This document shows positions 16,616 through 35,964 of a DNA stretch of 64,000 bases, in pieces. The notes under the pieces were generated by a model. It was not told the DNA's origin, ran no database searches, and worked only from the letters and a program-made list of their open reading frames with translations. A program made the translations under genes and the position numbers. This stretch comes from Lysobacter sp. K5869 (GTDB lineage: Bacteria; Pseudomonadota; Gammaproteobacteria; Xanthomonadales; Xanthomonadaceae): positions 2,333,001-2,397,000 of the forward strand of contig NZ_CP072597.1 in the NCBI RefSeq assembly GCF_018847975.1, given 5' to 3'. How positions within the stretch are numbered: the stretch's first letter is position 1; every line of letters starts with the position of its first letter.

Positions 16616-18844
16616 TTATTGGCACGACGGCAGCGGCGTCCCGTCGTCCCAGGCATTGCGCAACCACTTGATCCCTTCGACGCCGTTGTAGGGCACCGTC
16701 GGCGAATGGTTGGCCGGGTTGTCGCCGCCCAGATAACACGCGCTGCCCCACTGCGAGCCGCGCACGAAGCGGGTGTCGCTGACTTCGATGGTCACGCCCG
16801 AGCCCAGGCCCGAGTCGTAGGGCGCGAGCGTGTAGCCGCCGCCGGCGAGCCGGCTTTCGCGGATGGTCAGGCTGGAACCGGCGCCGGGGCGGTCGGCCCA
16901 GAACACCGCGGCGTTGCCGTAGCCGCCGGTGTTGACCGGGCGCGCGTCGATGTCGCTGTGCAGGATGCTGACGGTGCCGACTTGGCCCGGCGCATAGAAC
17001 TGCAGCGCGTCGAGGTGGTCGCCGGGGTAGAAGCAGGTCTGGTGGATCAGGCTGTCCTGGATCAGCACCGGCGCGCCGCCGCCGGCGACCAGCAGGTCGT
17101 CGCCGTTGTGGTGCAGGTGCGCGCGGATCAGCGTGTAGCCGTTGTCGCCGACGATGAGGCGGCGGCCGCCGTTGTTGCGGGCCGGGCAGGCGTCGGGGCC
17201 GAGGTCGACGTCCTTGAGCACGAGATTGCGGTTGGTGCGGTGGTCGACGTAGCTCTTGATCCGGCTGTTGCTGACGGTGACGTTGTCGTGGCGCACGATC
17301 AGCGCGCCGGAGATCGACAGTCCGTCGATGGTCTGGCCGTCGCGGCTGGTGGTGTAGTCGCCGACGATCGCGGTCAGCGGCCGTCCCGCGGGCACGCCGG
17401 TGCAGTTGCGGTCGGGGAAGGCCGGGAACGGCGCGCAGCTGCGCTCGCTGCCGAGCGGAGGCGTGGTGACCGACACCGATGGCGACGGCGCCGATTCGTT
17501 GCCGGCGGCGTCGACCGCGCCGACGCGATAGTCGTAGCGCGTCTGCGGCTGCGCGGTGTCGTGGACGAAGGCGGTCGATTCGGTTTCGCCGAGCGCGACC
17601 GGGTCGCCGTTCGCGTAGACGCGATAGCGCAGCTGCGCGCTGGTGTCGTCGCTGCTCGGGTTCCAGCTCAGATGCACGGTGTGGGCGTCGGCGGCGACCG
17701 CGCTGAGGCCGGTCGGCACGCTCGGCGCGACGGTGTCGCCGCTCAGCGGCGAGAACAAGGCGTCGACCCAATAGTTGGCCGAGCGCCAGCTCGCATCCGG
17801 AAACGCGCTCTGCGCGCCGTAGCGGTAATTGCCGTTGCCGCCGTCGCTGCCGTCGCGCAGCGCGCGCAACGGGCCGCTGGCGTAGTCGGCGTTGGCGAAG
17901 TAGTCCAGGTCGGCCGAGTAATGTCCGTTCGGCGCGTAGTAGGACACGAGGTAGGTGGTGTCCGCGGCGATCCGCACCGGCGCGGCGAAGCGCACGCTCT
18001 GCCAGCCCGAAGCGGTTTCCCCGGCGAAGGCGGCGCGCGCCAGCAGGACGCCGTCCTTGCTCCACAGGTTGCCGATATGCGCGCCGGTATTGGCGGCCGA
18101 TTTGTAGAAGCGCACGCCGGTGATCCAGCCCGGCTGGGTGCTGCGGAAGCGCAGGCCGAGTTCGACGCCGTCGGGATCGGGCGCGTCGATCAAGGTCGGC
18201 GCGGCCGCGTCGTTCCACAGGCTCAGGTCGCCGGCGGCGAAGGCGCGGAATTCGCGGATGTTGGTCCAGTACGAGCTGTTCTGGGTGCAGTGCAGGCGGC
18301 CGACGATGCGCGCGGCGCGCACGTCGCGCGCCGCGCCGCGGAAGGTGTAGACCACGCCGGCGGTTTGCGAGGAGTCGTACAAGTAGGCCGGTTCCACCGC
18401 CCAGCCGCTGTCGCGCCAATCGCCGCGGGCGCTGTTGGAGAACTGCAGGCGCAGGTCGGCGCAGAACGCGCCGTCGCCGCTGCTGTTCCAACTGCCGTGG
18501 ACGATCTCGACCCGGTCGATCGTGCGGCTCGCGTCCCACAGCACGCCCGCGCCGGAGTAGTGGTCGGCGGGCTCGCTCTCGCCGCCGCTCAGGTGCACGT
18601 CGACCGCGTCGTCGCCGTCGTTGAGCAGCGGCGCGGCGACGCGCAGGCTGTCGGGTTCGGTTTCGCTGCGGCCGTCGGCGGCCGCGGTCAGGCCGTGCTG
18701 CCAACGGTAAGCGGTGCCCGCGGGGGCGACGTTCGGGCCTTGCGCCGCGGCGAGGCCGGGCAGAGCGGCGCAACTCAACAGCAGGCACAGCGAAGCGGCG
18801 CGCGCGGGAGCGGGCGCGGCGGCGAAGCCGGAGTGGCTGGACAT
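16616..18844 (-). CDS. Secreted multidomain protein: DUF4082, fibronectin III, beta-helix
   Basis: 742 residues. ATG at 18844 gives a signal peptide ending near AAAQG (residue 35). An N-terminal discoidin-like galactose-binding region (~40-225, with IDRVEIVHGSWNSSGDG) is followed by DUF4082 (~232-385; WITGVRFYKSAANTGAHIG and TTYLVSYYAPNGHYS), a fibronectin type III domain (~390-480; PSVPTGLSAVAADAHTVHLS) and a C-terminal right-handed beta-helix region (~490-742, with repeated NVTVSNSRI and VLIQDSLI coils). DUF4082 and FN3 are usually appendages of secreted carbohydrate-active enzymes; the beta-helix could be a polysaccharide lyase or a binding scaffold. No catalytic residues can be assigned. 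Exported, probably extracellular. Confidence 0.85.
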   Translation of the reverse strand: MSSHSGFAAAPAPARAASLCLLLSCAALPGLAAAQGPNVAPAGTAYRWQHGLTAAADGRSETEPDSLRVAAPLLNDGDDAVDVHLSGGESEPADHYSGAGVLWDASRTIDRVEIVHGSWNSSGDGAFCADLRLQFSNSARGDWRDSGWAVEPAYLYDSSQTAGVVYTFRGAARDVRAARIVGRLHCTQNSSYWTNIREFRAFAAGDLSLWNDAAAPTLIDAPDPDGVELGLRFRSTQPGWITGVRFYKSAANTGAHIGNLWSKDGVLLARAAFAGETASGWQSVRFAAPVRIAADTTYLVSYYAPNGHYSADLDYFANADYASGPLRALRDGSDGGNGNYRYGAQSAFPDASWRSANYWVDALFSPLSGDTVAPSVPTGLSAVAADAHTVHLSWNPSSDDTSAQLRYRVYANGDPVALGETESTAFVHDTAQPQTRYDYRVGAVDAAGNESAPSPSVSVTTPPLGSERSCAPFPAFPDRNCTGVPAGRPLTAIVGDYTTSRDGQTIDGLSISGALIVRHDNVTVSNSRIKSYVDHRTNRNLVLKDVDLGPDACPARNNGGRRLIVGDNGYTLIRAHLHHNGDDLLVAGGGAPVLIQDSLIHQTCFYPGDHLDALQFYAPGQVGTVSILHSDIDARPVNTGGYGNAAVFWADRPGAGSSLTIRESRLAGGGYTLAPYDSGLGSGVTIEVSDTRFVRGSQWGSACYLGGDNPANHSPTVPYNGVEGIKWLRNAWDDGTPLPSCQ

Positions 18845-22064: not shown

Positions 22065-25000
22065 ATGATTTCGCATGCTGCGAACAAGCCTTTGGGGTGG
22101 AGTCGCTGGGGACTGGCCGCGCTGTTGTGCGCGGCCGCCTGCCTGAGCCTGCCGGCCGGCGCCCAGACCACGGTGACCAACACCGCGAGCGTCGCCGCGC
22201 CGGCCAACGGCGTCGACCCGACGCCCGGCAACAACAGCGCGTCCGACACGGACACCGTGCTGGCGCCGCAGTTGACCTTGAGCAAGAGCCACACCGGCAA
22301 CTTCACGGTCGGCGCCAACGGCACGTACACGCTGACGGTGAGCAACACCAGCACCGCCGCCGACGGCGCGCCGACCTCCGGCACGATCGCCATCGTCGAT
22401 ACGCTGCCCAACGGCTTGAGCTTCGTCTCCGCCGCCGGCGCCGGCTGGAGCTGCAGCGCCAGCGGCCAGACCGTCACCTGCACCAGCACCACAGCGATCC
22501 CCGTAGGCGGAAGCAGCACGGCGACCTTGACCGTCGCCGTCGGCAACGCCGCCGTCGGCAGCGTGACCAACACCGCGCGCGCCAGCGGCGGCAACGACCC
22601 GGGCTGCCCGGCCGCGCCCGGCACGCCGGCGGCGCGCTGCAGCGCCAGCGATCCGACCCAAGTCAACGGCGCGGCCGATCTGTCGATGAGCAAGGCGGTC
22701 GACAACGCCAACGCGGCGATCGGCAGCAACGTCACCTTCACCCTGACCGTCGCCAACGCCGGCCCGTCGGATGCGACCAATGTCGTCGTCACCGACCAGT
22801 TGCCGGCCGGCTTCACCTTCGTGTCCTCGGCCGGCGCGGGCAGCTACACCGCCGGCACCGGTGTGTGGCAAGCCGGCACCATCGCCGCCGGCGCCAGCGC
22901 CACCCGCACCATCGTCGCCACCGTCAACGCCGCCGGGCCTTACGTCAACAACGCCCAGGTCACCAGCGTCGATCAATCCGATCCGGATTCGACGCCGGGC
23001 GACGGCAGCGGCGACGACTTCGCCAGCGCCACGGTGACGCCGTCGGTGTCGGCCGACATCGCGGTGGTCAAGACCCTGACCACGCCCGGACCCTACGTCG
23101 CCGGGCAGACGGTCTCGTTCAACATCGTGGTGAGCAACAACGGCCCGTCGCCGGCCAGCAACATCGGCGTGGCCGATACGCCGACCGGCGCGACGCTCGG
23201 TGCGGTCAGTGGCGCCTGCAGCGCGTTGCCGTGCACGATCGCCAGCCTCGCCGCGGGCGCGTCGGCGACGATCACCGTCGCCGCGACCCTCGCCAGCGAC
23301 GGCAATTTCTCCAACGCCGCCACCGCGACCTTGCCGGCCGGGCAGACGGACCCGAATCCGAACAACAACACCGGCACCGCCAGCGGCGTCGCCGCGCCGG
23401 CCGCCGACGTGGCGGTGCAAAAAACGCTGACCACCGGCGGCGTGATCGTCGCCGGGCAAAGCGTGCAGTACCAGATCGTGGCGACCAACCACGGTCCTTC
23501 GGTCGCGACCGGCTTCGTACTCGCCGACACGCCGAGCAACATCGCGATCACCGCGGTCAGCGGCGCCGGCTGTACCGCGTTTCCGTGCACGCTGGGCAGC
23601 ATCGCGGTCAACGGCACCGCCACGGTCACCGTGACCGCGACGGTCGGCGCCACCGGCGGCGCCTTCAACAACTCCGCCACCGCGACCGCGCCGGCCGGAA
23701 CCACCGATCCGGTTCCCGGCAACAACACCGACGACGCGCCCGCCACCGCCGGCGCGCGGCCGATCAACGCCAATCCCGATACGCCGCCCGCGGTCAACGG
23801 CGGCAGCGGCGGCAATACGCCGAGCGTGGTCGGCAACGACACGCTCGGCGGCCAGCCGGTCACGGTGGGTGCGGGCGGCAATTCGGCGCTGACGCCGGGC
23901 ACCCGCCCGAACCCCGGTTTGACGATGAATCCGGACGGCACCATCACCGTCGCGCCGGGCACGCCGGCCGGCACCTACACCTTCCCGTACACGATCTGCG
24001 AAGTCGCCAATCCCACCAACTGCGCGACCACTCACGCCACGGTGACGGTCGATCCCTCCCAGCTCACCGCCAATCCGGACGATTACACCGGCACGCCGAT
24101 CAACGGCGCCAGCGGCGGCAACACCCCGTCGGTGATCGGCAACGACACCATCAACGGCCAGCCGGTCACGGTCGGCGGCACCGGCAACGTCGTGCTGACG
24201 CCGGGGACGAGCCCGACTCCCGGACTGACGATGAACCCGAACGGGACCATCGCCGTCGCACCGGGCACGCCGGCCGGCAGCTACACCTATCCCTACACGA
24301 TCTGCGAGCGGCTCAACCCGAGCAACTGCCGCACCACCACCGCCACCGTCGCGGTCGGCGCCGCGCCCATCGTCGCCAATCCCGACGACTACACCGCCAC
24401 GCCGATCAACGGCGGCAGCGGCGGCACGACGCCGCCGGTGATCGCCAACGACACCCTCAACGGCCAGCCGATCACCGTCGGCGCCGGCGGCAACGCCGCG
24501 CTGACGCCGGGGACCCGCCCGAACCCGGGCCTGAGCATGAACCCCGACGGCACCGTCGCGGTCGCGCCGGGCACGCCGGCCGGAACCTACCGCTATCCCT
24601 ACACCGTGTGCGAAGTGCTCAATCCGAGCAACTGCGCCACCGCCATCGCCACCGTCGTGGTCAACGCGGCGCCGATCGCCGCCGCGCCCGACACCGCGAC
24701 CACGCCGCAGAACACCCCGGTCACGACACCGGTGCTCGGCAACGACACCCTCAACGGCGCCGCCATCGACCCGAGCAAGGTGACGGTCACGGTGCCGACC
24801 GCGCCGGCCCACGGCACGGTCGCCGTCAATCCGGACGGCACCATTGTCTATACGCCGACACCGGGCTACTCCGGCCCCGACACCTACACCTATCAGGTCT
24901 GCGAGACGCTCAACCCGAGCAATTGCGCCACCGCGACGGTCGCGGTCACGGTGCAGCCCAACGTGGTGAGCGCGAACGACGACAACGCCAGCACGCCGGC

Positions 25001-26843
25001 GAACACGCCGCTGACGATTCCGGTACTCGGCAACGACACCGTCACCGGCGCGCCGTTGAACCCGGCCTCGCTGACCTTCCCGACGCCGCCCGCGCACGGC
25101 ACCGTGACGCTGAACCCAGACGGCAGCGTCGTCTACACGCCGGCGCCGGGCTACCTGGGCACGGACAGCTTCGTCTACCAGGTCTGCGACACCTCGACGC
25201 CGACGCCGGTGTGCGACACCGCCACGGTGAACTTGACCGTGACCGGCAGCCCGCCGGTCGCCAACCCCGACAACGAAGATGTCGCCACCGGCCACGCCGG
25301 CGATCCGCTGGTGATCGATGTGCTGAACAACGACACCGACCCGGACAACAACATCGACCCGGGTTCTGTGCTGCTGACGGGCGCCGGCGGCGACGGCAAG
25401 ACCCTGGTGGTGGCGGGCGAGGGCACCTGGACGGTGAACCCGAACGGCACCCTGACCTTCCTGCCGATGCCGGGCTTCATCGGCGAGGCGACCCCGATCC
25501 AGTACACCGTCGCCGACACCACCGGCCTGCGTTCCAACCCGACCACGGTGCGCGCCAACATCCTCGGCAGCGTGCGCCTGCGCATCGTCAAGACCGCGCA
25601 GCCGCGCGACGTGCGCATCGGCGATCTGGTGCGCTACACGCTGCGGATCGAGAACGTCGGCGACGCCGATGCGGTCGATGCGACCGTGATCGACACGCCG
25701 CCGCCGGGCTTCACCTACGTGTCCGGCTCGCTCAGCGTGGCCGACCGCGACGGCGCCGGCCGCCAGACCGGCAACTACCCGATCCGCGTCGACCGGATCG
25801 ACATCGCGCGCGGCGAGACCGCGACCCTCGCTTACCTGCTGCGGGTCGGCGCCGGCGTGCGCCCGGGCACCCACATCAATCGCGCCGTCGCCCAGGACAA
25901 CGGCGCGACCGTGTCCAACACCGCCCAGGCCGAAGTCCGCCTGATCGCCGATCCGCTGCTCGACGAGTCGCTGATCCTCGGCACCGTGTTCGACGACCGC
26001 GACGGCGACGGCTGGCAGGACCGCGCGACGTTGGACACGGTGCGGGTCCAGGGCGGCTTCGCGCCCGACGCCTACGTGCCGGGCTCGACCACGATCGACC
26101 GCGGCGACGGCCCCAAGCCGTTGGCCGACGCCAGCGCGCCGCTGCTGCACGGCATCGAGCTCGGCGCGCTCGCCGGCCGCGCCTCCGACGCCGATCCGGC
26201 GCCGGTGGTGGTGATCGCGCAAACCTTGCGCGAGCCGCGCTTCACCGGCGATTTCGTCCTCGCCGGCGGCGACGGCGTGAGCTTGCGCATGCAGGCCGAC
26301 GGTCGCAACCAAGTGCAGCGCAGCGGCCGCGCGGGCAAGGGACTCGATGCCGCCGCGCCGCGCGTGGAGCGGCGGGTCGTCCCGGTCGAAGGCGGCGTGC
26401 GGGTCGAATACGCGATCTACAACGACGGCGTCGACGAACGCGGCATTCCCGGGGTGCGCATCGCTTCGGTCGAAGGCCTGTTGATCGAGACCGATCCGTT
26501 CGGCCGCTATCACCTCGAAGGCGTTCCGGGCGGCGCTTGGGAGCGCGGGCGCAACTTCATCCTCAAGGTCGATCCGGCGACCTTGCCGCCGGGCACGGTG
26601 CTGACCACCGCGAATCCGCTGCTGCGCCGGATCACTCCGGGCCTGCCGGTGCGCTTCGACTTCGGCGCCAAGCTGCCGCCGCAGGAGGAGCCGCGAACTC
26701 AGGCAGCGCCGGAGCCGGCGTCGGGATCCGAACCGAAACCGCCAGCGCAAGCGCAGCGACCGGCGACGCCGGCCGCATCTTCGCTGCGGGACGAACGCGA
26801 TCCGAGCGCGCCGGCGGTGCGCAGCCAGGAGAGGACGCCGTGA
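22065..26843 (+). CDS. Giant surface protein: DUF11 and cadherin-like repeats
   Basis: 1592 residues. ATG at 22065 follows AAGAGGG and gives a signal peptide ending near LPAGAQ (residue 34). Then come four DUF11 repeats (~68-565, each beginning like ADIAVVKTLTTPG with a VVSNNGPSPA strand), three nearly identical ~102-residue modules (~567-870), three cadherin/VCBS-like modules (~871-1165, with VLGNDT and PAHGTV motifs), a fifth DUF11 (~1170-1300), a SdrD-B-like or carboxypeptidase-regulatory-like domain (GTVFDDRDGDGWQD; GIPGVRIASVEG) and a Pro/Glu-rich disordered tail. No membrane anchor at the C-terminus. Its stop overlaps the start of the barrel gene by 1 nt. It probably forms a long exported rod for adhesion; this is inference from the repeats. 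Confidence 0.9.
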   Translation: MISHAANKPLGWSRWGLAALLCAAACLSLPAGAQTTVTNTASVAAPANGVDPTPGNNSASDTDTVLAPQLTLSKSHTGNFTVGANGTYTLTVSNTSTAADGAPTSGTIAIVDTLPNGLSFVSAAGAGWSCSASGQTVTCTSTTAIPVGGSSTATLTVAVGNAAVGSVTNTARASGGNDPGCPAAPGTPAARCSASDPTQVNGAADLSMSKAVDNANAAIGSNVTFTLTVANAGPSDATNVVVTDQLPAGFTFVSSAGAGSYTAGTGVWQAGTIAAGASATRTIVATVNAAGPYVNNAQVTSVDQSDPDSTPGDGSGDDFASATVTPSVSADIAVVKTLTTPGPYVAGQTVSFNIVVSNNGPSPASNIGVADTPTGATLGAVSGACSALPCTIASLAAGASATITVAATLASDGNFSNAATATLPAGQTDPNPNNNTGTASGVAAPAADVAVQKTLTTGGVIVAGQSVQYQIVATNHGPSVATGFVLADTPSNIAITAVSGAGCTAFPCTLGSIAVNGTATVTVTATVGATGGAFNNSATATAPAGTTDPVPGNNTDDAPATAGARPINANPDTPPAVNGGSGGNTPSVVGNDTLGGQPVTVGAGGNSALTPGTRPNPGLTMNPDGTITVAPGTPAGTYTFPYTICEVANPTNCATTHATVTVDPSQLTANPDDYTGTPINGASGGNTPSVIGNDTINGQPVTVGGTGNVVLTPGTSPTPGLTMNPNGTIAVAPGTPAGSYTYPYTICERLNPSNCRTTTATVAVGAAPIVANPDDYTATPINGGSGGTTPPVIANDTLNGQPITVGAGGNAALTPGTRPNPGLSMNPDGTVAVAPGTPAGTYRYPYTVCEVLNPSNCATAIATVVVNAAPIAAAPDTATTPQNTPVTTPVLGNDTLNGAAIDPSKVTVTVPTAPAHGTVAVNPDGTIVYTPTPGYSGPDTYTYQVCETLNPSNCATATVAVTVQPNVVSANDDNASTPANTPLTIPVLGNDTVTGAPLNPASLTFPTPPAHGTVTLNPDGSVVYTPAPGYLGTDSFVYQVCDTSTPTPVCDTATVNLTVTGSPPVANPDNEDVATGHAGDPLVIDVLNNDTDPDNNIDPGSVLLTGAGGDGKTLVVAGEGTWTVNPNGTLTFLPMPGFIGEATPIQYTVADTTGLRSNPTTVRANILGSVRLRIVKTAQPRDVRIGDLVRYTLRIENVGDADAVDATVIDTPPPGFTYVSGSLSVADRDGAGRQTGNYPIRVDRIDIARGETATLAYLLRVGAGVRPGTHINRAVAQDNGATVSNTAQAEVRLIADPLLDESLILGTVFDDRDGDGWQDRATLDTVRVQGGFAPDAYVPGSTTIDRGDGPKPLADASAPLLHGIELGALAGRASDADPAPVVVIAQTLREPRFTGDFVLAGGDGVSLRMQADGRNQVQRSGRAGKGLDAAAPRVERRVVPVEGGVRVEYAIYNDGVDERGIPGVRIASVEGLLIETDPFGRYHLEGVPGGAWERGRNFILKVDPATLPPGTVLTTANPLLRRITPGLPVRFDFGAKLPPQEEPRTQAAPEPASGSEPKPPAQAQRPATPAASSLRDERDPSAPAVRSQERTP
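23764..24680 (+). repeat. Three tandem ~306-bp repeats inside the DUF11 gene
   Basis: Units start at about 23764, 24064 and 24370. Each encodes NPDxxxxxxxNGxSGGxTPxV, then ALTPGTRPNPGLTMNPDGT-like and VAPGTPAGTYxYPYTxCE segments. Protein identity between units is high and DNA similarity is visible, so copy number may vary by recombination. Confidence 0.85.
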
Positions 26844-29800
26844 TGAGCCTGAAACTGAAGCTGCTCGATTACTCCCTGCTGTGCGCGATCGCCGGCTTGC
26901 CGGTACAGGCATGGGCGCAGGACGCCGCGTCTTCGCCCTCGCTCGCCGATGCGTTCGCCGCGGGCGCGGTGGCGCGCGTGGCGGCGGACAACGCCGCCCG
27001 CACCGAAATCGCGGCGCCCGCCGCCTCGACCGGCCCCGCGCAAGTCGCCAAAGGCCAGTGGAGCGCGCGCCTGCCGGCCGGCGGCGTGATCTGGGCCACC
27101 GAAGATCCCAATCTCGGCCAACCCGAGCTCAACGTCTCCGCGCCGAGTCTGGTGCCGTTCGACGGCCGCCGCGTCGCCAAGCCGGTGCAGTTCTACGTGC
27201 AGAACAACTACTCGGCGTTCATCCAGCGCAGCGAAGTGTTGATCTACCGCGCCAGCGACGCCGATCTGGTCGAACCGCTGGCGCGCGTTCCGCTGCCGGC
27301 CGGCGCCACCGCCAGCGCCGACTGGGACGGCAGCCTGCCGGCCACGTTCGAGGCGCGCGCCGGCGACGAACTGGTGTACCTCGTGCGCGCTTACGGCGAC
27401 AACGGCGCGTTCGACGAAACCTTTCCGCGCAAGCTGCAACTGGTGCGCCCGGAGGAAGCCGAACGCGGCGCGCAGCAACTGCGCCGGGCGGTGGAGCAGC
27501 GCTACGGCGACGCCTACAGCGCCGAGCAAGCACAGCGGCAGAGCCTGATCGACCAAGCGTTCGGCGAGAACGGCCTGCGCCAGCAGAACATCCGCATCTA
27601 CGGTTCGCGCATCCGCATTCAGGGCCGCAATCTGCCGGACCGGGCCAGCGTGACCATCAACGGCCAATCGCAGCCGGTGGACCTGGAAGGCAAGCTGGTC
27701 GCCGAATATCTGGTGCCGGTGGGGCAGCATCGCTTCGACATCGCCGTCGACGGCAAGGACGGCACGCTGCAGCGCGCGCTCGACGTGGACGTGAGCGGCA
27801 AGTACCTGTTCGCGGTGGCGCTGGCCGACGTGACCGTGTCGAAGAACCGCGCGTCCGGTTCGGTTGAGGCGCTGGGCGCGGACGCGGACCGGCTCGACGA
27901 CAGTTTCCTGGTCGACGGGCGTTTGGCTTTCTATTTGAAGGGTAAGTATCGCGGCAAGTATTTGGTCACCGCCCAGGCGGACACCCAGGAACGCGAGATC
28001 AGCGAACTGTTCAACGGCTTCTGGGACGCCGACCCGCAGGACGTGTTCCGCCGCCTCGACCCGAACCTGTACTACCCGGTCTACGGCGACGACTCCACGG
28101 TCTACCGCGACGTCGACACCATGGGCCGCTTGTACCTGCGCGTGGACTGGGACAAGAACCAGGCGCTGTGGGGCAACTTCAACACCGGCATCACCGGCAC
28201 CGAGTACGGGCAGTACTCGCGCGCGCTGTACGGCGGCGCATTCGAGTGGCGCTCGCAGCGCACCACCGGGCTCGGCGAAGCCGGCACCCGCGTGCGCGCG
28301 TTCGGTTCCGAAGCGCAGACCGCGCCGGGCCACAGCGAATTCCTCGGCACCGGCGCCAGCCTGTACTACCTCAAGCACACCGACGTGCTGCCGGGTTCGG
28401 AGCGACTGGTCATCGAGGTACGCGACGACACCACCGGCCGGGTCGAGAACCGGATCGAACTGCACCGCGGCGCGGACTACACCATCAACGAAATGCAGGG
28501 CCGGATCGAACTGTCGCGGCCGCTGCTGATGCGCGGCGACCGCCTCAACCTGCCGCGGCTGACCATCGACACGCCGCTCGACGGCCTCAGTCAGGTGCTG
28601 CTGGTCGATTACGAATACGTGCCGCGCGGCTTCGATCCCGACGACGTCACCCTCGGCGTGCGCGGCAAGCATTGGTTCGGCGAGCATCTCGCGGTCGGCG
28701 CGACCTATGTCGACGAGAACCGCGCGGGCGAGGACTACACGCTCAAGGGCGCGGACGTGACCTTGCAGGCCGGCCGCGGCACTTACCTCAAGCTCGAACA
28801 CAGCCGCACCCAGGCCACCAGCGCGCCGGTGTTCTTCTCCAGCAACGGCGGCTTGAGCTTCACCCAGCGCAACGCCGCGCTCGGCGCGCGCGCGGGCAGC
28901 GCGCGCGCGATCGAAGCGCGGGCCAACTTCAAGGAACTGGGCTGGACCCGCGACGACTGGTCGGCCGCGGCGTGGTGGCGCAAGGTCGATGCCGGCTATT
29001 CGATCAGCCGCTTCGATCAAGGCCTGGACATCGAAGAGCGCGGCGCCGAACTGCTCGGCATGATCGGCCAGCGCTTCCAGTTGTACTCGCGCTACAGCCG
29101 CGCCGAACGCGGGCGGGAGTCGTTCACTCAAGCCCAGCTCACCGGCGAATGGCGCATCGACCAGGACAACACGCTCAGCGCGGAATTGCGCCGGGTCGAG
29201 GAGGAACGCGCCGGCGGACCTTCGGCCGACGCGGTCGGCACGCTGGCGGCCTTGCGCTATCTGCGCCGCGTCGGCACGAGTTGGGAGTGGTACGGCACCG
29301 CGCAGAAGACCGTCGACGACGATCACGGCAAGTACCGCGACAACGATGCGCTGACCCTCGGCGGCAAATACCTGTTCGGCGATCTGTCCAGCGTCGGCGC
29401 CGAAGTCACCAGCGGCGACCGCGGCGATGCCGCCCAGATCAACGCCGAGTACCGGCTCACGCCCGACCACAGTTTCTACGCCGCCTACACCCATTCCACC
29501 GACCGCAGCGAGTACGACCCGCTGTTCAACCGCCGGCAGACGCCGGGCTGGACGCTCGGCCAGCGCTGGCGCCTGTCGGATCAGGTCAACCTGTTCAACG
29601 AAAGCCAGTTCCTCAAGGAGCCCGACGCCTCCGGCATCGCCCACACCTTCGGCATGGATTTCTACCCGGGCGACAACTGGAACCTCGGCTTCACCCTGCA
29701 ATCGGCGCAGTTGGACAAGAGCGTGGGGCAGGTCGACCGCGACGCGGTCAGCCTCAGCGGCGGCCGCACCACCGCGGACACGCAGTGGCAGAGCAAGCTG

Positions 29801-30460
29801 GAATGGCGGCGCGACTCCGGCGCCGAGCGGCGCGAGCAATGGGTCAGCACCCATCGCCTGCTGCACAAGTTCAACGAGAGCTTCCGCATTGCCGCGCGCG
29901 TCAACTACTCCAAGACCGAGGACAAGCAGCAGGCCGAGGCCGGCGCCAAGTTCATCGAAGCCAATCTAGGTTTCGCCTGGCGGCCGTTCGACAGCGCGGG
30001 CTGGGCGCTGCTGGGCAAGTACACCTACCTCTACGACGTGTCCGCACTGGAGCAGGACGGTCCGAACGCGGCGTTCTACGACCAGCGCAGCCAAGTGCTG
30101 TCGTTCGAGGGCGTGTACCAGCCCGACCACCGCTGGGAGTACGCGCTCAAGCTGATGCGCCGCGAAGGCGAAGTGCGTTACGGCCGCCTGCAGGGTCAGT
30201 GGGCCGACTCGGCCGCGACCTTCGCCGCCGGCCAAGTGCGCTACGAATTCGCCGGCGTGTGGCACGCGCTGGCCGAATACCGCTGGCTCGGCGTCAAGCG
30301 TGGCGGCGACAAGCGCGGCGTGCTGCTCGGCGTCGATCGCGACATCGGCGAGAACTTCCGCATCGGCCTGGGCTACAACTTCACCGAATTCAGCGACGAC
30401 CTCACCGACTTCGATTACGACCACCGCGGAGTGTTCCTCAACGTGGTCGGCAAGTACTGA
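26843..30460 (+). CDS. Large outer-membrane beta-barrel protein of the surface operon
   Basis: 1205 residues. The ATG shares its A with the stop of the DUF11 gene, indicating translational coupling. Signal peptide to about residue 26 (LPVQAWAQ). A periplasmic part (~27-365) includes YVQNNYSAFIQRSEVLIYRA and a repeated PEGA-like strand pattern (INGQSQPVDLEGKLVAEYLV). From about residue 370 the sequence becomes a succession of amphipathic strands with aromatic girdles (YAAYTHSTDRSEYDPLFNRR, FRIGLGYNFTEFSDDL) up to a C-terminal aromatic (VGKY), as in outer-membrane barrels. No TonB box or plug seen. It may anchor, export or sense through its giant neighbour. Confidence 0.88.
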   Translation: MSLKLKLLDYSLLCAIAGLPVQAWAQDAASSPSLADAFAAGAVARVAADNAARTEIAAPAASTGPAQVAKGQWSARLPAGGVIWATEDPNLGQPELNVSAPSLVPFDGRRVAKPVQFYVQNNYSAFIQRSEVLIYRASDADLVEPLARVPLPAGATASADWDGSLPATFEARAGDELVYLVRAYGDNGAFDETFPRKLQLVRPEEAERGAQQLRRAVEQRYGDAYSAEQAQRQSLIDQAFGENGLRQQNIRIYGSRIRIQGRNLPDRASVTINGQSQPVDLEGKLVAEYLVPVGQHRFDIAVDGKDGTLQRALDVDVSGKYLFAVALADVTVSKNRASGSVEALGADADRLDDSFLVDGRLAFYLKGKYRGKYLVTAQADTQEREISELFNGFWDADPQDVFRRLDPNLYYPVYGDDSTVYRDVDTMGRLYLRVDWDKNQALWGNFNTGITGTEYGQYSRALYGGAFEWRSQRTTGLGEAGTRVRAFGSEAQTAPGHSEFLGTGASLYYLKHTDVLPGSERLVIEVRDDTTGRVENRIELHRGADYTINEMQGRIELSRPLLMRGDRLNLPRLTIDTPLDGLSQVLLVDYEYVPRGFDPDDVTLGVRGKHWFGEHLAVGATYVDENRAGEDYTLKGADVTLQAGRGTYLKLEHSRTQATSAPVFFSSNGGLSFTQRNAALGARAGSARAIEARANFKELGWTRDDWSAAAWWRKVDAGYSISRFDQGLDIEERGAELLGMIGQRFQLYSRYSRAERGRESFTQAQLTGEWRIDQDNTLSAELRRVEEERAGGPSADAVGTLAALRYLRRVGTSWEWYGTAQKTVDDDHGKYRDNDALTLGGKYLFGDLSSVGAEVTSGDRGDAAQINAEYRLTPDHSFYAAYTHSTDRSEYDPLFNRRQTPGWTLGQRWRLSDQVNLFNESQFLKEPDASGIAHTFGMDFYPGDNWNLGFTLQSAQLDKSVGQVDRDAVSLSGGRTTADTQWQSKLEWRRDSGAERREQWVSTHRLLHKFNESFRIAARVNYSKTEDKQQAEAGAKFIEANLGFAWRPFDSAGWALLGKYTYLYDVSALEQDGPNAAFYDQRSQVLSFEGVYQPDHRWEYALKLMRREGEVRYGRLQGQWADSAATFAAGQVRYEFAGVWHALAEYRWLGVKRGGDKRGVLLGVDRDIGENFRIGLGYNFTEFSDDLTDFDYDHRGVFLNVVGKY

Positions 30461-30477
30461 GGCGAAGGAGAAAACGC

Positions 30478-32493
30478 ATGAAAAGCCGCACAGTTTCTTC
30501 TTCCTCGCTGCCGCGACGGCTGCTGATCCTGGCCTTGCTGACGCTGGCGAGTTTTTCGGCGCAGGCGCAGTTCGCCACCGGCGGCTCCGGGCGATTCAAA
30601 TCGCAGATCTTCTGGTTCGACTGGGGGCAACAGGGCGCGGCCATTCCGGCGGCGGGGACGACGGTCACCAACACGTTCAATACCTCGGCGGGCCAGCAGT
30701 TGCGCATGACCTGCTCGATCAGCAATTTGAACGGCGCCATGCACATCAAGCAGCCGGGCGACTATTCCGGCGATGGGTTGGACGATCTGTACAACATCGG
30801 CGGAACCGACGCCGCCAATACGATGGACATCGGACTGGCCAACACTGCCGATGGAGCAACGGTGACTTTTACCTTCGCGTGTTCCGCGACGCTGGGAGCG
30901 GCGGGCGACCCCAATGCGCCGGATTATCCGCTGTCCGGTCTGGTGTTCGCCGATGCCGAGCAATCTCAGAACCAAGGAACGCAGAACGAATACACCCAAG
31001 GCACGGTCACCAGTGCAGGCACTACATGGCGAATGATCGATCGCTTCCGCAACTGCACGACTTCCGATATGCCGGTGATCCGCACCGATAGCGGTGGACA
31101 GAGTACGTTGCGATTGAACGGCGCCCCGACCATTTGCCAGTCCGGTCCCATGGGCGTGGCCTTCATGGAAGGAACGACCACGGCGAACGTGGTGTTGAAG
31201 GGCGGCGGCAACTCGGCGATCGCGCTGGGCGCGATGGTCGTGTTCACCACCGACTTCGGCGACGCGCCGGCGAGTTACGGCAATCCCACTCATGAGGCGC
31301 AGCCTTCGTGGTCGGGCGGCGTGCCCGCGGCCAACGCCACCACCCAGCTCAACAGCATGACGCTGGCCGACTTGGTCCAGCCGACCGCGCGCCTGGGCAG
31401 CCTGGTCGATGCCGAACTGGCCCCCCGGCACAACGCCAACGCGGACGGCGACGACAACGACGGCAGCGACGACGAGGACGGATTCACCGCGCCGCTGGGC
31501 GTCGTGGTGGCGGTGCCGGGCGATACCTACACTCCGCCGCCTATCGCGTGCAGCGGCGGCGGCACCGTGCGCGGCTGGGTCGATTTCAACCGCGACGGCG
31601 ATTTCAACGACCCGGGCGAGGTCTCGAACAACGCGCCGGTGTGTCCGGGTGGCGCCAACGGCAGCGGCACGGTGACCTTGAACTGGACGGTGCCCGCCAA
31701 CGCCAGCCAGGGGCGCAGCTACATGCGCCTGCGCACCGCCTCGGTCGCGGCGCAGATCGCTACGCCGGACGGCGCGGCCGCCGACGGCGAGGTGGAGGAT
31801 TACCTCATCACCGCCTTGGCTCCGGCCAAGGTCACGCTGATCAAGCAGATCGGCTCGCGCATCGATCCGGCCGATCAATTCACCGTCGGCGTCCTCGACG
31901 GAACGACTGTGCTGGGTACCGCGACCACAGCGGGCGCGGCGTTGACCGCCAGCACCGGCGAAGTGGCGGTCGACGTGACGGGGCCTTACACCCTGCGCGA
32001 CGCTAATGCCGGCGGCTCCGCGATGCTGCGCTACACCCCGAGCCTGGCTTGCGTCGCCAATGCCGGCAGCAGCGGCGCGGTCCCCACGCCGACCGGTCCG
32101 ACCGGCAGCGGACCCGCCGAATGGAACATCACCTTCAACAATGGCAACGATCTGACCTGCACGATCACCAACACGCCGAATCAGGCCGACCTGACGATCG
32201 CCAAGACCAACAACCGCACCGCGAGCGAACACGGTCAGGCATCGCAGTACACGCTGACCGTCACCAACAACGGCCCGGGGACCGCTATCGGCGCGGTGGT
32301 GACCGACCCGGTCCAGGCCGGGTTGGACTGCCCGGCCGCGAATCCGGTCACCTGCAACGGCGTCGCGGGCGGCTGCCCGGTCGCAGCGGCGACGATCGGC
32401 GATCTGCAGGGCACCGGGGTGACCCTGGGAACCCTGCCGGCCGCCGCCGGAAGCAACTCGGTGTCGTTGCAGTTCACCTGCACGGTGCAGTGA
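30478..32493 (+). CDS. CshA-like fibrillar protein with GEVED and DUF11 domains
   Basis: 671 residues. ATG at 30478 with GAAGGAG upstream, 17 bp after the barrel gene, so third gene of the operon. Signal peptide 1-31 (ending FSAQAQ). The N-terminal region (~32-258) starts QFATGGSGRFKSQIFWFDWG and resembles the CshA non-repetitive fibrillar adhesin domain. A GEVED-type domain follows (~259-447; DFGDAPASYGNP, RGWVDFNRDGDFNDPGE, DGEVEDYLI), then a SpaA/prealbumin-like domain (~448-565) and a DUF11 domain (~570-671; ADLTIAKTNN, TVTNNGPGTA). No anchor motif at the end. Probably an extracellular adhesive fibre component working with the two upstream proteins. Confidence 0.88.
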   Translation: MKSRTVSSSSLPRRLLILALLTLASFSAQAQFATGGSGRFKSQIFWFDWGQQGAAIPAAGTTVTNTFNTSAGQQLRMTCSISNLNGAMHIKQPGDYSGDGLDDLYNIGGTDAANTMDIGLANTADGATVTFTFACSATLGAAGDPNAPDYPLSGLVFADAEQSQNQGTQNEYTQGTVTSAGTTWRMIDRFRNCTTSDMPVIRTDSGGQSTLRLNGAPTICQSGPMGVAFMEGTTTANVVLKGGGNSAIALGAMVVFTTDFGDAPASYGNPTHEAQPSWSGGVPAANATTQLNSMTLADLVQPTARLGSLVDAELAPRHNANADGDDNDGSDDEDGFTAPLGVVVAVPGDTYTPPPIACSGGGTVRGWVDFNRDGDFNDPGEVSNNAPVCPGGANGSGTVTLNWTVPANASQGRSYMRLRTASVAAQIATPDGAAADGEVEDYLITALAPAKVTLIKQIGSRIDPADQFTVGVLDGTTVLGTATTAGAALTASTGEVAVDVTGPYTLRDANAGGSAMLRYTPSLACVANAGSSGAVPTPTGPTGSGPAEWNITFNNGNDLTCTITNTPNQADLTIAKTNNRTASEHGQASQYTLTVTNNGPGTAIGAVVTDPVQAGLDCPAANPVTCNGVAGGCPVAAATIGDLQGTGVTLGTLPAAAGSNSVSLQFTCTVQ

Positions 32494-33768: not shown

Positions 33769-35964
33769 ATGTTGAGATCCGCATTGTTCTTAGCTTGTGT
33801 GGCCGCGGCAGCGCCGGGGATCGCCGCGCCGCCGTCGCTGTTCCGCGACGCGCCCTCGGCCAAGTCGGGCGTCGCCGCGCGCGAGGTTCGGGTGACGCTC
33901 AACCCATCGGCCTTGGCCGATGCGGCCGTCGAGGGCGGGTTGTGGTTCGCCACGCCGGCGGGCCAGCGCGTGTTCGCGCGCAGCGTGCGCCACCAAGTGC
34001 TCGCCGACGGCAGTTTCTTGTGGGTCGGCAAAGTGCGCACCCGCGACGGCGAGCGCAGCGTACTGGTGACCCGCGGCCGCGATGCGACGTTCGCCAGCCT
34101 GTTCGCCGAAGACGGCACGCCGCTGCGGTTGGAGACGCGCAAAGGCGCCACCTATCTGAGCGTTCCCGCCCCGGGCTTGGACGCGAATCGGCTGGCCACG
34201 GCCAAAGGCATCGCCGATCAGGTCGCCGCGGAGCCGCCGCTGATCGGCGCGGCCGACGTGCGCCGCACCCAGCTCGCGTTGGCGAAAGCCGCCGGCCCGG
34301 TGGTCGACGTGTTCGTCGGTTTCACCCCGGGGCTGGTGACGCGCTACGGCTCGCAGTCGGCGGCGGTGACCCGGCTGAACTATCTGGTCGCGGTGACCAA
34401 CCAGGCCTTCGCCGACAGTCAGGTCGATGCCACGTTGCGTCTGGTCGGGACCCAGCTGACCAGCTATTCCGACACCGCGACCAACAGCGATGCACTGGAC
34501 GCACTCGGCGACCGCAGCGGTACCAGCCCGCTGCAGACGCTGCGCGATGCGCGGCGCAAGTCCGGCGCGGACATGCTGGTGATCGTGCGGCCGTTCCTGA
34601 CGCCCGAGCACGGCAACTGCGGCTTGGCGACCGTCAACGGCAGCAACCTGGGCCCCTACACCACGGCGTCGGCGAGCGGCGCCAACGCGGCCGTGAGCGA
34701 TGGGACCGACGACAACAGCGGTTACTACTGCAGCGAGACGACCTTCAGCCACGAGTTGGGCCACAACTGGGGGCTGGTGCACGAGTCGGGCGTCAGCGAC
34801 AAGCCGGGGCCGTTCCCGTACACGTTCGGTTGGCGCCAAGACCTGCCCGGCGGCGGTTTCCATACCTTGATGGCCTACGGCACGTCGGGCCAATCGTTGG
34901 CGCCGTACTATTCCAACCCCGATATCTACCTGTGCAAGGGCCAGCCCTGCGGCGACGCGGGCACCGCCAATCAGGCGCGGGCGCTGCGTTCGACCCTGCG
35001 CGTGGCTTCGGCCTTCAATCAGCCGCTGGATCCGTTGATCGACATCGACGGCGACGGGTTCGCCGACCTGATCTATCAGAAGGACGGCGAAATGGATTTC
35101 GTGCTGTATCGCGGCACCTACGCGGCCTACGGCGGCCGGCAGACCAAGGGCGCGGGCTTCCGCCTGGTCGCAGCCGGCGATTTCAACGGCGATCATCGCA
35201 CCGACCTGATCTGGAACAGCGATGCGCATCAGCCGCAGATCTGGACGGCGCAGACCGACTACACCTTCCAGAACTACGCCAAGGCCTACACGTCCTGGGA
35301 CGTGATCGGCGCGGCGGACATCAGCGGCGACGGCAAGAGCGACATCTTGTTCACCAAGCCCGGGGAAACGCAGCTGCGGGTTTGGGTCATGAATGGAACC
35401 AGCACGTCGTCGACCAAGTTCTTCGACATCACCCCGGGCTATCGGCTGGCCGCCGCGCGCGACTTCAACGGCGACGGACTGGTCGACCTGATGTGGACCA
35501 ACGCCGACCGCCGCCTGCAGTACTGGCAGAACAACGGCAACAACACCTTCGCCGTCGTCGATACCCAACTGCAGTATCCGCAAGGCTGGCGCATCGTCGG
35601 CAGCGGCGACTTCAACAACGACAACAAGGCCGACCTGGCGTTCATCGACGACAACGCGCTGCTGCTGTCGGCGGCGACGGTGTGGACCATGGACGGCGGC
35701 AACCGGATCGGAACGCAATCGGTCAGCGGCCCGGTGCTCGAATTGCTGCACAGCCCGATCGCGGTAGACCGCTATGGCGGCGCCACCGCCAGCGTGATGT
35801 GGACCAGCTTCCTGCGCGATATGTGGATGTCGCTCAACGACGGCACCGGCGAGAACTACACGACCACCAGCGTGCTGGCGTGGCCGGCCAGCACCTCGGG
35901 ATCGTTCTATCGCAACTATCCCGCGGGATGGACGGTGTTCACCGGCGCGCCGAATACGCCGTGA
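33769..35964 (+). CDS. Secreted metzincin metalloprotease with FG-GAP/VCBS repeats
   Basis: 731 residues. ATG at 33769 with AGGAGAG upstream; signal peptide to about residue 20 (PGIAA). A propeptide-like region (~21-175) precedes the catalytic domain (~180-425) with the zinc signature HELGHNWGLVH (His328, Glu329, His332, His338) and a Met-turn in TLMAYGTSG (Met368), as in reprolysin-like metzincins. Cysteine pairs in the catalytic domain suggest disulfides. The C-terminal half (~425-731) holds FG-GAP/VCBS repeats with calcium-type loops DIDGDGFADL, DFNGDHRTDL, DISGDGKSDI, DFNGDGLVDL and DFNNDNKADL. Secreted, probably extracellular, calcium-dependent; typical of the lytic exoenzymes of Lysobacter. 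Confidence 0.93.
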   Translation: MLRSALFLACVAAAAPGIAAPPSLFRDAPSAKSGVAAREVRVTLNPSALADAAVEGGLWFATPAGQRVFARSVRHQVLADGSFLWVGKVRTRDGERSVLVTRGRDATFASLFAEDGTPLRLETRKGATYLSVPAPGLDANRLATAKGIADQVAAEPPLIGAADVRRTQLALAKAAGPVVDVFVGFTPGLVTRYGSQSAAVTRLNYLVAVTNQAFADSQVDATLRLVGTQLTSYSDTATNSDALDALGDRSGTSPLQTLRDARRKSGADMLVIVRPFLTPEHGNCGLATVNGSNLGPYTTASASGANAAVSDGTDDNSGYYCSETTFSHELGHNWGLVHESGVSDKPGPFPYTFGWRQDLPGGGFHTLMAYGTSGQSLAPYYSNPDIYLCKGQPCGDAGTANQARALRSTLRVASAFNQPLDPLIDIDGDGFADLIYQKDGEMDFVLYRGTYAAYGGRQTKGAGFRLVAAGDFNGDHRTDLIWNSDAHQPQIWTAQTDYTFQNYAKAYTSWDVIGAADISGDGKSDILFTKPGETQLRVWVMNGTSTSSTKFFDITPGYRLAAARDFNGDGLVDLMWTNADRRLQYWQNNGNNTFAVVDTQLQYPQGWRIVGSGDFNNDNKADLAFIDDNALLLSAATVWTMDGGNRIGTQSVSGPVLELLHSPIAVDRYGGATASVMWTSFLRDMWMSLNDGTGENYTTTSVLAWPASTSGSFYRNYPAGWTVFTGAPNTP

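Follow-up and report, generated by a model that had tools for sequence, protein, structure and literature searches.

The question raised by three adjacent genes in Lysobacter sp. K5869 is how a giant repeat rod, a giant outer-membrane barrel and an adhesin-like protein might be assembled into one surface structure. The genes lie in a 64,000-nucleotide stretch (the window) that corresponds to positions 2,333,001-2,397,000 of the forward strand of NZ_CP072597.1 (GCF_018847975.1). Each of the three open reading frames is intact and on the plus strand: the rod gene (22065-26843) encodes 1592 amino acids, the barrel gene (26843-30460) 1205, and the third gene (30478-32493) 671. Base 26843 is common to the rod stop codon TGA and the barrel ATG, and the third gene starts 17 bp past the barrel stop, preceded by gaaggag, which resembles a ribosome binding site. 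An earlier reading of the window (the sequence-only reading) had described this one-base overlap and 17-bp gap, and the reading frames and junction sequences bear it out. It is likely that the third protein, as a tip, and the rod rebuild a split CLIPPER (DUF11) domain, probably Lys-Asn linked, on a fiber that is exported or held by the barrel.

A CLIPPER domain apparently divided between tip and rod

The third protein matches the Pfam families CshA_NR2 (its head), GEVED, SpaA_3, and DUF11, the last of which forms a C-terminal docking, or acceptor, domain (32170-32490, plus strand; residues 565-671). The DUF11 match (PF01345, E 8.9e-11) covers positions 1-84 of 114 and stops at the protein end. 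The domain keeps the isopeptide residues Lys576 (codon at 32203) and Asp610 (codon at 32305), and the strand bearing the Asn is missing from the chain. Similar truncation is seen in relatives: in 7 of the 10 third proteins given to Pfam, the final DUF11 match breaks off at positions 83-88, where the protein ends. In two others (L036 and L091), Pfam shows an internal DUF11 instead, and the C-terminal match to our own profile reaches positions 90 and 89 of 125, respectively; in L023, Pfam and our profile both stop earlier.

All 65 complete acceptors (69 were found, and 4 fragments were dropped) retain the Lys of the bond and the catalytic Asp, and the Asn falls in the missing part. These acceptor chains end 3-9 residues past the last Cys; comparison by eye of acceptor tail length with donor spacing gave no pattern. 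By comparison, 225 unique complete internal DUF11 domains of rods show a conservation of 1.00 (rounded) for each of Lys, Asp, and Asn. The bond residues of the docking domain are not all in one chain: acceptors hold the Lys and Asp, and the rod N-terminus holds an Asn strand. Among the best 120 of 653 relatives of the third protein, the profile places an acceptor domain at the end of 63; a variant end (VPV...DY or similar) is seen in 17, a complete final DUF11 in 3, and no DUF11 match in 29. The remaining 8 are mixed, some being cut or misread frames.

The window rod starts with a Sec-type signal peptide (peptide and cleavage site were judged by eye), and just after it comes the Asn-bearing strand that is missing from the DUF11 acceptor, QTTVTNTASVAAPANGVDPTPGNNSASDTDTV. 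This donor strand at the mature N-terminus (22164-22268, plus strand; residues ~34-68) reads QTTVTNTASV...PGNNSASDTDTV, and the codon of Asn39 is at 22179. A donor-type start is present in 27 of 41 rods with a readable mature N-terminus, and another start in 14 of 41. Sorting was by eye and by an Asn-containing motif, so a count of Asn among donor rods is circular, because the motif itself contains Asn; the association of class with partner is not circular. Five rods were left unsorted (L033, L044, L066, L073, and L084), and L095 was assigned by eye despite a frame flagged as open upstream.

Eight of the 14 non-donor rods match a CshA-type tip. Five more (L050, L051, L052, L095, and L097) have approximately 360-420 residues with no Pfam family, followed by a DUF11 that reaches positions 96-113 of 114, and L092 has no Pfam match in its first 600 residues. 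We regard the N-terminal regions of the 14 as built-in heads, which for these last 6, non-CshA, rods is an assumption.

The short donor strand is only partly recognizable from sequence alone. A terminal-strand profile built from all complete internal domains did not separate donors from other N-termini. Of 1000 random stretches given to a profile of 93 internal strands of similar type, none of them N-terminal, 874 were scored; of 27 donors given, 26 were scored, and 15 of these outscored every scored random stretch. Of 14 other N-termini given, 13 were scored, and none of the 13 exceeded the 99th percentile. By using an automatic cleavage guess, the donor motif is found within the first 16 residues of 16/27 donors and 0/14 others, and in 55 of 20,000 random 16-mers.

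Donor rods and acceptors co-occur: an acceptor protein is present in the locus of 24/26 donor rods, versus 0/14 other rods (Fisher p 5e-9). Both donor rods lacking a neighboring acceptor come from genomes that contain acceptors elsewhere. One, L046, belongs to genome G020, which has seven acceptor matches of at least 89 bits outside that locus. The second, L104, belongs to the window's own genome, in which three rods with the N-terminal donor tag, five acceptor (catcher) tips, and two proteins with variant ends were found. The acceptor-profile search covered nine genomes, including G020 and G028; G028 has six acceptor matches above 100 bits, and also carries the L041 rod beside an acceptor. 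In the seven other genomes, whose rods have built-in heads, acceptor matches are only weak (best 33-44 bits) and lie inside frames of 2069-2801 amino acids. Each of these seven has one close barrel (57-65% identical), and one also has a distant barrel; thus, there is no second close rod-barrel pair in them.

Several proteins in the window's own genome vary this theme. Genes 5-7 of locus L132 (4.453-4.4725 Mb) form an array of three tips (1515, 776, and 1003 amino acids) whose N-terminal parts differ and whose docking ends are almost identical, as if the docking domains were kept alike by gene conversion. Gene 3 of L133 and gene 2 of L134 encode the variant ends, which finish ...VPVRYSADPGDY or ...VPVAFNSNPGSY and perhaps represent a second docking class with another partner. 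Within the L104 rod (L104:463-10533), residues 96-191 form an acceptor-type domain with a donor-like strand directly after it, which is a cis version of the joint.

The rod-barrel unit and its anchor

One scan of genome contigs yielded 106 confirmed barrel relatives, of which 80 were kept; gene starts in the fetched loci come from our own gene caller and are approximate. A barrel is present in 20/20 genomes of the genus by genus search, and the closest barrel whose source is named comes from Lysobacter enzymogenes (90%). The fetched loci contain 101 long barrels, window included, and 97 of them have at least 300 bp of upstream sequence. A rod-like gene lies directly upstream of 95 of these 97, with a gap of at most 30 bp in 87 of the 95 pairs, 30 of which are overlaps. 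Of the two exceptions, L007 has a gap in its assembly that is preceded by a rod tail, and in L073 the rod is on the other side. Because of this order and spacing, rod and barrel are a conserved unit. The arrangement is not due to chance, because relatives in Lysobacteraceae, Comamonadaceae, Acinetobacter, and Microbulbifer keep the two genes together.

The third gene is an interchangeable part. In relatives, the domains of its product vary, and the gene is sometimes missing or elsewhere in the genome. The sequence-only reading of the genes as a dedicated surface machine thus stands for a rod-plus-barrel unit with an adhesin (the 95/97 pairing), and not for a fixed trio, given that the third gene differs between species and is absent beside rods with built-in heads. 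Separation of the genes in relatives is found for the third gene, and not for rod and barrel.

Two genomes of the same genus, G001 and G002, have nine barrel matches each; those in G001 are several long copies and pieces, one piece having 3 TGA, and those in G002 are mostly short pieces on small contigs, plus one distant match. An apparent barrel-tip fusion in L082 was set aside, as the barrel end is lost and a second signal peptide follows, a pattern that suggests a frameshift in the assembled metagenome.

The window rod comprises DUF11 (CLIPPER) repeats in six stretches, Big_9, cadherin-like, and CshA-type repeats by Pfam, followed by a Pro-rich tail. A PDB sequence search with its DUF11 repeats gave no match. 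A paralogous rod in the same genome (L136:5285-16942, minus strand) has 3885 amino acids and 23 full DUF11 repeats of approximately 125 residues in tandem.

The C-termini of rods (at most 330 amino acids each) were scanned for 94 of 96 listed loci, including the window (L001); L007 and L018 are broken by N or frame and were dropped. The OmpA peptidoglycan-binding family is matched by 91 of the 94. No C-terminal OmpA domain is found in the window rod, which ends in its Pro-rich tail, and the L004 rod (barrel 91%) likewise ends in a Pro-rich tail without OmpA. The third rod without OmpA is likely L060, whose end seems frameshifted. The claim that the rod has no membrane anchor thus holds for the window rod, in which no anchor domain was found, but this rod is unusual in its family; the sequence-only reading missed both the family's OmpA domain and the split domain that joins the third protein to the rod.

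In a distant sister system, with a barrel 29-32% identical over approximately 315 residues, OmpA has its own gene next to that of the barrel, and the rod has no listed OmpA match. Its loci, L169:5711-18000 and L170:6806-14628, are in the same genus and encode a shorter barrel, a separate OmpA protein, and a DUF11 rod; a barrel of this kind is also found in G027. Because OmpA occurs in nearly all rod C-termini or as a separate gene in the sister system, the fiber base is predicted to be attached to peptidoglycan as a rule, whether in cis or in trans. The best conserved stretch of the aligned rod C-termini is a module at residues ~1421-1536 (26325-26672, plus strand), ...GIPGVRIASVEGLLIETD...DPATLP..., and it is possible that this module docks to the barrel.

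The barrel protein consists of a signal peptide, an N-terminal beta-rich part, and a run of strands, with 34 strands of at least 8 residues between mature residues 558 and 1178. In a Pfam scan to E 1, no family passed the cut-off (the single weaker match is DUF2490, at E 0.011), and so there is no POTRA, plug, or usher profile. That scan also showed no autotransporter barrel profile, and Pfam and NCBIfam scans of the barrel showed no TonB-dependent receptor plug or barrel profile; "TonB-dependent receptor" is the database name of some relatives. The sequence-only description of a barrel with no POTRA or TonB plug, distinct from type V and two-partner systems, is consistent with these scans. 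A PDB sequence search with the barrel gave no match. Fold searches return ushers, SprA, LptD, and porins, name no single family, and so rule none out; ushers are among the top rows, and SprA is second in the Foldseek list (TMq 0.16). There is no usher Pfam match in the barrel and no PapD-like chaperone among ten neighboring proteins scanned. The Pfam scans of the three proteins and these neighbors gave no sign of curli, for which no directed search was made. A suggested link to Type 11 secretion was discarded, as the literature match came from "DUF1194", which shares the start of its name with DUF11.

The proposed fiber and its alternatives

What the sequences show is an acceptor that is cut short but retains Lys and Asp, a strand at the N-terminus of the rod, the co-occurrence of the two, the single-chain alternatives, and the rod-barrel pairing; from these we infer tip-rod docking, a covalent bond, a direction of export, and a role for the barrel. 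The rod would be the stalk and the third protein the adhesive tip of a two-piece surface fiber, each with a Sec signal. The N-terminal strand of the rod would dock into the incomplete CLIPPER domain of the tip and complete its fold in trans. Docking would place Asn39 of the rod beside Lys576 and Asp610, both buried in the tip, so that the two proteins are probably welded by a spontaneous Lys-Asn isopeptide bond. In rods with CshA heads, the head is N-terminal and OmpA is C-terminal, and this suggests that the tip is outside and the rod C-terminus in the periplasm. In this orientation, the N-terminal tip would face away from the cell, and the rod would be held by its C-terminal end at the outer membrane, bound there to the giant barrel; the barrel most likely exports the fiber and holds its base. 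In most relatives, the OmpA domain would additionally tie the base to peptidoglycan. A broader reading, to which we give even chances, is a natural modular tag-and-catcher system, in which an N-terminal rod tag and interchangeable catcher tips scattered in the genome allow different heads to be covalently fitted to a barrel-held stalk.

Tip and rod could instead be joined by the shared fold alone, as pilins are, by donor-strand complementation with no covalent bond. The split geometry would be identical, and the Lys-Asn bond is predicted rather than observed. However, plain strand exchange needs neither the Lys nor the Asp kept in every complete acceptor, complete domains show no variation in the Lys-Asp-Asn set, and Lys and Asn form a bond in structure 9ifr, so a purely noncovalent joint appears unlikely. 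The same 65/65 conservation, across Gammaproteobacteria and Betaproteobacteria, argues against the two halves being leftovers of an ancestral single adhesin that was split inside DUF11 and whose pieces are now separate. Single-chain rods with a head do exist, but several tips per genome share a docking end despite differing heads, and donor rods and acceptors closely co-occur; such a relic is very improbable.

Doubt of another kind concerns the barrel, which might act only as an anchor or pore while rod and tip exit in a different way, for example by type II secretion. The barrel belongs to no recognized secretion family, and its export role is deduced; against this, rod and barrel genes are nearly inseparable, with most gaps short or overlapping, and we regard a separate exit as rather doubtful. 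The gene spacing in the window would suit a fixed three-gene export-and-anchoring machine with an anchorless rod, as first read, but the relatives contradict it, the third gene being variable, distant, or absent and OmpA being present in 91/94 rod C-termini, and we give it almost no credence. If the fiber passes through the barrel, as we favor, a widespread, uncharacterized giant outer-membrane barrel gains a likely substrate.

Relation to known systems and neighboring genes

The adhesin of the CLIPPER crystal structure PDB 9ifr, B9T28_05395 of Acinetobacter silvestris, is the head-bearing rod of locus L086, with 2129 amino acids, CshA_NR2, GEVED, CLIPPER repeats, and OmpA. Our reading of L086 verifies Lys715 and Asn806; the catalytic residue is Asp748 in PMC12617251, whereas L086 has Asn at 748 and Asp at 749. 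Intramolecular Lys-Asn isopeptide domains are known as single-chain stabilizers (PMC12617251), and the words "barrel", "split", "SpyTag", and "secretion" do not occur in the main text of that paper. That adhesin carries every bond residue in cis on one chain, whereas in the window locus one CLIPPER domain appears divided over two proteins. Proteobacterial CshA_NR2 adhesins in PMC10952558 have the same head, stalk, and anchor families, including OmpA anchors and DUF11 stalks, but the text covered treats no separate tip, split domain, or barrel. According to the same text, a C-terminal anchor was required for inclusion in that study's full-length library, which would exclude tips such as the third protein. 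Compared with OmpA-anchored fibrillar adhesins, the window rod has the signal peptide (by eye) and the repeat stalk, and lacks the C-terminal OmpA.

Chaperone-usher pili also use a large outer-membrane barrel (FimD or PapC), a fiber that emerges tip first, and an Ig fold completed by a neighbor's strand. The proposed fiber would share these features, but many pilins are used there and one giant stalk here. Archaeal threads combine strand complementation with a proposed intermolecular isopeptide bond, as we propose here; in PMC9715654, however, one subunit is repeated and the bond joins an N-terminal Asp to an Asn two subunits away, rather than a Lys to an Asn in a completed domain.

CLIPPER stalks, CshA heads, OmpA anchors, and strand complementation are thus already known kinds. 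In SpyTag/SpyCatcher, an isopeptide domain was split by engineering so that one strand reacts in trans. That pair is engineered (PMC6539128), whereas the joint proposed for the window is natural, based on CLIPPER, and apparently used for assembly. A domain apparently divided between two proteins to assemble a fiber with exchangeable tips would be a natural counterpart of SpyTag/SpyCatcher, and its rod and tip parts could become new ligation tools. A natural CLIPPER domain split over the products of two genes, in genomes with several tips each, was not found in the literature searched (preprints and most subscription journals were outside its scope).

Upstream of the operon, the minus strand (window positions 16616-18844) encodes a protein that combines DUF4082 with fibronectin type III domains, and downstream, at 33769-35964, is an M12B reprolysin-like metalloprotease with FG-GAP repeats.
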